A DNA stretch of 64,000 nt from Caballeronia novacaledonica. Lineage in GTDB: Bacteria; Pseudomonadota; Gammaproteobacteria; Burkholderiales; Burkholderiaceae. The notes under the pieces were generated by a model. It was not told the origin of the DNA. It ran no database searches and worked only from the letters and a program-made list of their open reading frames with translations. The stretch covers positions 1-64,000 of the forward strand of contig NZ_OGTP01000007.1 in the NCBI RefSeq assembly GCF_900258035.1. Direction: 5' to 3'. The translations under genes and the position numbers were made by a program. This document shows, piece after piece, positions 37,400-38,709 of the stretch (position 1 is the stretch's first letter; the number at the start of each line of letters is the position of its first letter).

Positions 37400-38521
37400 A
37401 TGACCCAGCACGAAATTGCCGCAAACGACTACGACGAATTCCGTTCGGGCATCGTGGAAGTGCTCGAAAGCGCCCGGCGCGCGGCCGCGCGCAGCGTCAA
37501 CGCGATCATGACGGCGTCGTACTGGGAAATCGGACGGCGGATCGTCGAATCGGAGCAGGGCGGAACGCAGCGGGCGGCTTACGGGGAGACGCTCATCGCG
37601 CGGCTGGCCGCCGATCTCACGAGCCGTTTCGGCCGAGGATTCGGCAAGGCGAACCTCGCCAACATGCGCGCGTTCTATCTGCAATGGCCGCGCGAGAGGA
37701 TTTTCCAGACGCCGTCTGGAAAATCCACGACGGACTCGCCAATGCTCCAGACGGCGTCTGGAGAATCCGCACTCGCCGCGCTCGCCGCCCGCTTCGTGCT
37801 GCCGTGGTCGGCCTACGTGCGTCTGCTCTCCGTGAAGAGCGACGCGGCGCGCGCCTTCTACGAGAGCGAAGCGCTGCGCGAGGGCTGGTCGGTCCGCCAG
37901 CTCGACCGGCAAGTGAACAGTCAGCTTTTCGAGCGGCTCGCGCTGTCGCGCAACAAGGCGGCGTTGCTGGAAAAGGCCGCCGAGCGCGCTCCCGGCGATG
38001 CCATCACGCCCGAGGAAGCCATCAAAGATCCGTTCGTTCTCGAATTCCTCGACATCAAGGACGAATATTCCGAGTCGGATCTGGAGGACGCGCTGATCCG
38101 GCGCCTCGCCGATTTCCTGCTCGAACTCGGCGACGATTTCGCTTTCGTCGGACGACAGAGACGCTTGCGTATCGACGACACGTGGTTCCGCGTCGATCTG
38201 CTGTTTTTCCATCGACGGCTGAAGTGCCTCGTGGTCATCGATCTGAAAGTCGGGCGATTCAGCTACGCGGACGCCGGGCAGATGCATCTCTATCTGAACT
38301 ACGCGCGCGAGCACTGGATGAAGCCGGGCGAAAATCCGCCGGTCGGGTTGATTCTGTGTGCGGGAAAGGGCAGCGCGGAGGCGCGCTACGCGCTGGACAA
38401 CCTGCCGAACAAGATTCTCGCGGCCGAATATCAGACGGTGCTGCCCGACGAAAAGCTGATCGCGGAAGAACTGGAGCGTTCGCGCGAGGCGCTGGATGCG
38501 CGGCGCGGCAATGCCGGCTAG
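37400..38521 (+). CDS. DUF1016 family PD-(D/E)XK nuclease (YhcG type)
   Basis: 373 residues. N-terminal DUF1016-N helical domain (ASYWEIGRRIVESEQGG, LSRNKAALLEKA) and C-terminal nuclease domain with VDLLFFHRRLKCLVVIDLK, giving the D...(D/E)xK metal site. These proteins occur in many bacteria; proposed links are restriction or DNA repair, not settled. Between the domains, residues 102-123 contain two copies of a (F/L)QT(P/A)SG(K/E)S peptide encoded by DNA palindromes, where most family members have none. Neighbours give no defence-island context. Confidence 0.88.
   Translation: MTQHEIAANDYDEFRSGIVEVLESARRAAARSVNAIMTASYWEIGRRIVESEQGGTQRAAYGETLIARLAADLTSRFGRGFGKANLANMRAFYLQWPRERIFQTPSGKSTTDSPMLQTASGESALAALAARFVLPWSAYVRLLSVKSDAARAFYESEALREGWSVRQLDRQVNSQLFERLALSRNKAALLEKAAERAPGDAITPEEAIKDPFVLEFLDIKDEYSESDLEDALIRRLADFLLELGDDFAFVGRQRRLRIDDTWFRVDLLFFHRRLKCLVVIDLKVGRFSYADAGQMHLYLNYAREHWMKPGENPPVGLILCAGKGSAEARYALDNLPNKILAAEYQTVLPDEKLIAEELERSREALDARRGNAG
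37698..37763. repeat. Two palindromic elements inside the DUF1016 gene
   Basis: First copy: 14-bp arms GGATTTTCCAGACG and CGTCTGGAAAATCC around one base (37698-37726). Second: 9-bp arms CTCCAGACG and CGTCTGGAG around one base (37745-37763). Centres are 42 bp apart, exactly 14 codons, so both are read in the same phase. Shared core: TCCAGACG-N-CGTCTGGA. Confidence 0.9.
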
Positions 38522-38546
38522 CGCAGGAATTACGTGGCGAACTGGC

Positions 38547-38577
38547 AAAAAAAAGCCCGCTTCAGTTGAGCGGGCTT
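38547..38577 (-). terminator. Rho-independent terminator (minus strand)
   Basis: AAGCCCGCT and AGCGGGCTT pair around a 7-base loop; the run of A at 38547-38554 gives a U-tract on the minus-strand RNA. It ends the cytochrome c operon and may also stop the nuclease gene from the other side. Confidence 0.85.
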
Positions 38578-38709
38578 GAATCCACATCGGTTGAGACATG
38601 GAGGAGACAGGTGTAAGTATAAACCCTTAAGCCTCCGCGTCAATACCTAAAACAAAAAAAATCGCAATCGGGTGTGCACCGCAGCGAATTTGCAACAGCT
38701 TGTCGCCGT

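Follow-up and report, generated by a model that had tools for sequence, protein, structure and literature searches.

A hypervariable palindrome inside DUF1016/YhcG nuclease genes is probably a DNA site read by the protein that each gene encodes

The locus

Here, we describe a DUF1016/YhcG nuclease gene and the two palindromes within it, found in a 64,000-nucleotide stretch of Caballeronia novacaledonica DNA (contig NZ_OGTP01000007.1 of assembly GCF_900258035.1, positions 1 to 64,000; hereafter the window). We propose that the palindrome, which recurs at the same coding place across this gene family, is very probably a DNA recognition site for the protein of its own gene, a reading drawn from sequence comparison. 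The features concerned are listed in Table 1.

Table 1. Features of the DUF1016/YhcG gene in the window
Feature	Position	Strand	Description
DUF1016/YhcG nuclease gene, 373 aa/codons	37400..38521	+	Open reading frame; PF17761 E 2.2e-42, PF06250 E 1.7e-57; PADLOC PDC-S02
Codons 84-88	37649..37663	+	Residues 84, 87 and 88 are proposed readers of half-site positions 7, 8 and 5
Palindrome 1	37698..37726, centre 37712	.	14-bp perfect arms, 37698-37711 / 37713-37726; encodes IFQTPSGKS
Palindrome 2	37742..37766, centre 37754	.	12-bp arms with one mismatch, 37742-37753 / 37755-37766; encodes QTASGES
Trp136 (near-invariant) and codons 137-140	37805..37819	+	Residues 137 and 140 are proposed readers of positions 3 and 4
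Codons 165-166	37892..37897	+	Proposed readers of positions 3 and 2
Nuclease active-site stretch, Asp266 ... Asp281-Leu-Lys283	38195..38248	+	Conservation across 368 genes

The window protein is a member of the YhcG/DUF1016 family, with a DUF1016_N domain at residues 18-179 (144.8 bits, Pfam cut-off 32.8) and a YhcG PDDEXK nuclease domain at residues 206-354 (194.1 bits, cut-off 32.5), and the PADLOC models that match it best are those named PDC-S02. NCBIfam gave no match, and a sequence search of solved structures returned none with the protein itself and five weak, chance-like ones with its profile. The PD-(D/E)XK residues Asp266, Asp281 and Lys283 are all present. In the plasmid records, the closest match of the gene comes from Caballeronia insecticola (91.7%). 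DUF1016/YhcG proteins are widespread and little understood. PMC1189080 predicts that YhcG is a PD-(D/E)XK nuclease akin to the Holliday-junction resolvases of archaea, and gives no known function for its N-terminal domain; according to PMC2672614, Escherichia coli YhcG associates with HsdMRS and McrABC, and is synthetic lethal with dnaB, dnaN and parE alleles.

A first-pass annotation had reported two in-frame palindromes 42 bp apart, the first with 14-bp perfect arms, and this is exact. They lie 312 and 354 nt past the ATG and are read QTPSGKS and QTASGES; the second has a perfect core with 9-bp arms (37745-37763), and its bases at half-site positions 2-8 are identical to those of the first. 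The sequence TCCAGACGNCGTCTGGA lies at 37704-37720 and at 37746-37762 without a mismatch, 42 nt from start to start. Even with up to 3 mismatches these remain its only matches in the window, while dinucleotide shuffles gave a mean of 0.45 (n=100) and at least two matches in 7 of 100. Throughout the 6.78 Mb genome, TCCAGACGNCGTCTGGA, and even its 10-base core CAGACNNNGTCTG (CAGAC-NNN-GTCTG), occur at these two places only, so that the proposed search for the palindrome elsewhere in the genome finds just the two copies in this gene; reversing the core as a control gave 4 occurrences.

Sequence sample

Relatives of the window gene were gathered from genomes of its genus, order, class and phylum, from named genomes (the best 80 of at least 574 loci), from viral loci (73 from two scans; one further viral scan gave no matches), and from plasmid and E. 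coli records. Collapsing identical genes left 280 non-identical genes, or 368 once later loci were added, and the linkers holding the palindromes were cut out by profile alignment. Sampling is uneven: most genes are from Betaproteobacteria and other Pseudomonadota, and many of the named ones come from metagenome bins.

Results

A palindrome is kept at one place across the family. Among 368 non-identical DUF1016/YhcG genes of bacteria, archaea and phages, 354 have a palindrome of at least 8 of 11 pairs at the same coding stretch, and 318 have at least 9. By the stricter count, the linker is palindromic in 247 of 280 genes, against 92 of 4240 stretches of equal length taken from those same genes. 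Carriers include archaeal bins (e.g. L124, L129, L150 and L156), phage contigs, and named Actinomycetota, Deinococcota, Cyanobacteriota and Rhizobium plasmids, with a weaker palindrome in L307 and L308. In 246 of 247 genes the palindrome is centred on the first base of a codon, and where the linker is short its centre stands exactly 18 nt ahead of a near-invariant Trp codon in 132 of 137; the equivalent of Trp136 is Trp in 192 of 194 genes.

The palindromes are very different between genes and yet palindromic throughout. A thinned set of 92 palindromes has 1012 pairs, of which 900 are Watson-Crick, against 471 predicted by column composition. Even within the genus the arms change on both sides together, as in ATTTTCCAGACGCCGTCTGGAAAAT (window), ATTTCGCAGACAGCGTCTGCGAAAT (L018) and GATTGTGCAGACGCTGTCTGCACAATC (L031), and another gene of the genus (L046) has a different core, GATTTCCGAATCACTGATTCGGAAATC. 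The consensus half reads AATT, about seven variable bases, then CA adjoining a central C or G, with three or four kinds of Watson-Crick pair at each of positions 3-9. The site spans about 19-35 bp, and its palindromic unit about 9 residues. The first-pass annotation had noted that QTxSGx peptides vary among DUF1016 proteins, and this holds: the peptide changes while the palindrome stays, which is the opposite of a fixed peptide written in non-palindromic codons in relatives.

At least two linker copies are present in 69 of 280 genes, mostly spaced 36-54 nt apart (commonest 48, 39 and 42). Copies tend to carry the core of their own gene, with 94 further matches in 174 genes against about 20 expected from other genes' cores (86 matches in 739 control scans). 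Tandem copies that differ at positions 6-9 remain symmetrical there. In 58 genomes, all 15 places of the TCCGAATC type fall within DUF1016 genes. Two observations stand apart from these: the linker palindrome of L180, AGATTGTGAACACGCGTGTTCACAATCT, is even-centred with perfect arms of 14 bp where others are odd-centred, and one same-genus genome (G056) contains 74 instances of the reversed control pattern GTCTGNNNCAGAC, probably as a piece of an unrelated repeat.

Palindrome bases change with residues encoded outside the palindrome. Corrected for overall protein distance, the distance between half-sites correlates best with residues 81-92, just before the palindrome. Such a correlation alone would be compatible with linkage, since the partial correlation peaks on both sides of the palindrome, at 0.216 (residues 81-92) and 0.155 (residues 136-147). 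Mutual information was computed over the 230 of 280 genes with at least 9 pairs and enough aligned columns (effective number 128.6). From the top of its list we picked seven residue-position pairs, namely 84-7, 137-3, 166-2 and 165-3, with 87-8, 140-4 and 88-5 weaker, and left the other high pairs aside, except for 80-5, which was kept as a comparison. The association takes in residues 84, 88, 137, 140, 165 and 166, with 87 less sure. The partners are Arg84 with G7, Arg166 with C2 (and so with a G in the opposite strand), C3 with Arg or Lys165, Val, Leu or Ile165 with A3, Ser137 with A3 and Thr137 with G3. These pairings are chemically sensible and fit direct readout of DNA, and residues 84, 87 and 88 (i, i+3, i+4) would, if helical, share one face, as we propose from their spacing.

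Several tests were applied to these pairs. Under permutation within clades, all seven pairs exceeded 500 of 500 shuffles, while neighbouring residues 85, 86 and 90 gave no signal and the pairs 80-5 and 91-8 a weaker one. In contrasts between relatives with different residues at the place in question, the base changed as predicted in 47 of 49 cases for Arg84, 48 of 51 for Ser137, 23 of 27 for Arg/Lys165, 20 of 26 for Arg166 and 12 of 16 for Glu87, and the opposite change was never seen. One 90%-identical pair of close relatives has switched specificity, with Arg84 and G7 in one and Thr84 and C7 in the other. The held-out set was 44 of 80 new genes, after removal of those with under 9 pairs, with insufficient aligned columns or with a training gene above 80% identity. 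In this set, five of the seven rules predicted the base better than did either the majority base or the nearest training protein; 88-5 tied with the nearest training protein, and 87-8 failed. Pure linkage as the cause of the covariation is argued against by the silence of residues 85, 86 and 90 and by the held-out performance of neighbouring residues, which stayed near the majority baseline or rose slightly above it (141-4, 18 against 12; 139-4, 16 against 12; 167-2, 34 against 29).

When relatives of more than 60% identity were kept out of training, the seven rules together placed a protein's own site ahead of the sites of others, with a mean area under the curve (AUC) of 0.958 (n=152); against the sites of nearer genes only this was 0.915, and random columns gave 0.640. 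The seven residues were chosen on overlapping data, and the 44-gene test is therefore the cleaner of the two. In the window gene, palindrome 1 agrees with all seven rules.

The third bases of codons also follow residue 84. Where a Val codon occupies positions -9 to -7, it is GTG in 63 of the 64 genes that have Arg84 and GTC in 53 of the 57 that lack it, and Leu, Arg and Ser codons at these positions show the same third-base behaviour. Since the third base tracks residue 84 while the encoded residue is unchanged, it is the nucleic acid that is read.

Copies outside the linker follow the same rules. Eight related loci have an extra palindrome upstream of the coding start, which fits 7/7 rules in seven of them (L022, L023, L024, L026, L029, L030 and L037) and 6/7 in L032; as close relatives, the eight are taken as a single event. 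One upstream-copy locus has an annotated record (L408), in which the copy is intergenic, with its centre 63 nt before the start. Ten loci have an in-gene palindrome at 126 or 129 nt ahead of the Trp codon, six of which fit six or seven of the seven rules and four of which fit 4. One gene (L078) has lost its linker copy, and there the moved copy fits 7/7. The other 29 palindromes in this survey fit 0-5 rules. Two other upstream sequences were noted. A different palindrome near TGTCAAGGAATCCTTGACA, outside the residue rules and perhaps the operator of another regulator, precedes some DUF1016 genes (L380, at -447 and -393 nt from the Trp codon; L207, at -429; L337, at -379). At -504 nt in L103, the palindrome GATTGTCTCCGCAGCGCGGAGACAATC has the core of another DUF1016 subfamily and not that of the adjoining gene.

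Alleles of E. coli yhcG differ where the site and some of its proposed reader residues lie. In the K-12 gene, three palindromes are built on CAGAC-NNN-GTCTG and differ in their outer arms, and the allele of an O157 strain is 78 nt shorter, with a single palindrome. Identity between K-12 and strain KBN3987 is 97-98% over nt 0-239, 47-67% over nt 240-419 and 95-100% from nt 540 to the gene end, and the divergent cassette (nt 240-419) contains the palindromes and codons 84-88. Compared as L294 601-1713 and L204 3828-4955 (K-12), the alleles have near-identical ends and a different central cassette (nt ~240-540), like an exchanged specificity block. As separate observations, K-12 yhcG (L204 3828-4955) has Arg at the family's near-invariant Trp, where five other in-frame E. 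coli alleles have Trp, and E. coli yhcG is often broken, with frameshifts, insertion sequences or a missing C-terminal part annotated (L293, L296, L297, L298 and L299).

Discussion

The letters of the motif shift in step with particular amino acids in relatives, which argues that the protein of the same gene reads them. A DNA site kept at one coding place across the family, with half-site bases that covary with residues of the DUF1016 N-terminal region, is shown statistically. In the mechanism we propose, a dimer would bind the palindrome, with residues 84, 87, 88, 137, 140, 165 and 166 near the DNA. The first-pass annotation had suggested a possible target of the encoded nuclease, and the protein of the gene probably does target this DNA, at least in recognition. 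Neither intragenic palindromes nor DNA recognition by the N-terminal domain is described in those portions of the DUF1016/YhcG literature that were found, a body of text in which subscription journals and preprints are largely uncovered.

What might the site be for? Self-control is the likeliest role, with self-targeting by the nuclease as its main rival. A site that occurs only in the gene and is read by its product would most simply be an operator for self-control, and the upstream copies fit this; in that one clade, a second operator copy would stand ahead of the start codon. Tentatively, then, predicted binding at an intragenic operator may repress the gene and keep the nuclease low, and diverged specificities may stop cross-regulation among related genes. 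Paralogues in the same genome tend to have sites more different than those of equally distant genes elsewhere (e.g. 0.66 vs 0.55 in the 35-50% identity bin), a comparison of 51 pairs only, 1 of them identical. For a site about 300 nt into the coding sequence, a transcription roadblock is one possibility.

Self-targeting or sibling exclusion is given some room by the kept nuclease site, the occurrence of the genes on mobile elements and the rapid turnover of specificity; we regard it as possible but rather doubtful. On this account the nuclease domain would cut palindrome DNA, e.g. when an element bearing the same DUF1016 gene enters, and spare the protected resident copy, and frequency-dependent selection would then make the site hypervariable. 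In its favour, the active site is conserved (in the 368-gene set, counting only genes with a residue at the place, Asp266 in 350 of 350 and Lys283 in 348 of 349), specificity switches among close relatives such as the 90%-identical pair, the genes occur on plasmids (467 of 72,556 records) and phage records (15 of 50,697), and on two Deinococcus plasmids (L302 and L310) the gene follows a DNA methyltransferase gene. However, the site is intact in the gene itself, no protecting partner common to the examined loci was found, and no restriction-modification gene adjoins the window gene, as judged by reading the list of open reading frames from 35.2 to 42 kb rather than by searching the neighbours against families. 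On both Deinococcus plasmids the DUF1016 gene overlaps the end of the preceding methyltransferase gene, and the next gene in L302 encodes a restriction subunit S.

A self-recognising nuclease is a related and less probable idea. Its in-frame, hypervariable target would serve as an identity tag that tells the gene from its siblings, with DNA of the same tag being cut or excluded, or with the tag keeping the protein harmless. With about 250 nt spanning both reader and tag, one recombination cassette would swap the two together and thereby drive new specificities.

Two alternatives concern the origin of the palindrome. Quasi-palindrome correction, in which replication template switching matches the arms and the palindrome has no function, would explain why positions 7-9 are symmetrical where tandem copies differ; it leaves the fixed place, the residue-base rules and the held-out success unexplained, and as the whole account is very unlikely. 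It may operate alongside selection, and the symmetry of differing tandem copies could reflect either tolerant reading at each position or its restoration by mutation, for instance through template switching. No more credible is a selfish element of the Rickettsia palindromic element (RPE) type that jumps into genes in frame. Such an element would account for coding palindromes in frame, for multiple copies in 69 of 280 genes and for copies at a second place. It would not account for a fixed place in one gene family, for the lack of copies in the rest of the window's genome or for the confinement of the TCCGAATC type to DUF1016 genes. The absence elsewhere in the genome and the fixed place contradict a genome-wide mobile element of this kind. 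Of the propagating element first suggested for this gene, multiplication in frame within the gene is supported; free movement is not, given also that the sequence tracks protein residues.

The two remaining alternatives are weaker still. In an mRNA hairpin, the palindrome would be a stem in the transcript, and inverted repeats with a 1-3 nt centre would indeed fold. A stem would tolerate G-U, and no excess of it is found: among the mismatches of the 1012 pairs, G:T occurs 10 times against 64 expected, below A:C at 33 against 80, which favours a DNA site. In addition, the pairing reaches position 2 about a 1-nt centre, and the bases track protein residues. We reject a hairpin on the G:T and A:C counts, and hold it to be very improbable. 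A peptide constraint, in which flanking residues match a peptide that the palindrome happens to encode, would fit the coupled residues 84 and 137-140 flanking the linker, but is contradicted by the synonymous-codon tests and is hardly to be believed: synonymous codons track residue 84, the rules also fit non-coding upstream copies and copies elsewhere in the gene, and recoding the same peptides synonymously gives 5.25 pairs where 9.88 are observed, with p<=0.01 in 254 of 280 genes, a test that is somewhat generous in that the observed centre is the chosen maximum.

Palindromic binding sites in coding sequence have precedents. The intragenic operators lac O2 and gal O-I are of this kind, as is parS inside spo0J, which lies in the gene of its own binding protein, as we propose for the DUF1016 site. 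Unlike these, the DUF1016 site is family-wide and hypervariable, coevolves with the encoded residues and is often in tandem and in frame. Repetitive extragenic palindromic (REP) elements are likewise short palindromes, but are extragenic and of high copy (PMC3733652), whereas the DUF1016 site is coding and has two copies in the genome. RPEs, as described in PMC4316617, are selfish elements of ~100-150 nt in intergenic regions, RNAs and coding sequences. They share palindromic DNA translated in frame with the DUF1016 site, which is shorter (~19-35 bp), is tied to one gene family and lacks dispersed copies. PARCELs (palindromic amphipathic repeat coding elements) also have in-frame coding dyad symmetry and tandem copies; the abstract of PMC2996958 describes them as amphipathic repeats of 25 residues, found in a variety of proteins that are often membrane proteins, and makes no claim of a DNA-reading protein. 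The DUF1016 unit is instead a palindrome of ~9 residues, without the 25-residue amphipathic repeat.

If our proposal is true, the target of the N-terminal domain is written in each DUF1016 gene, including that of E. coli K-12 YhcG, so that binding, regulation and cleavage could be tested together. The family would also form a natural data set for the protein-DNA recognition code, with hundreds of proteins each accompanied by its own site, in which a coding sequence is shaped at once by its peptide and by the DNA site which that peptide's protein reads.

Further observations

Two minor features were seen in the same genome. Directly past the window gene, at 38546-38580, lies a hairpin-like stretch with an A run before AGCCCGCT...AGCGGGCTT, by eye a possible terminator. 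Outside the window, at C20:363153-363545 of the same genome (G000), a second DUF1016_N match with one in-frame TAA holds two palindromes of another type, TCCGAATCNNNGATTCGGA, 48 nt apart.
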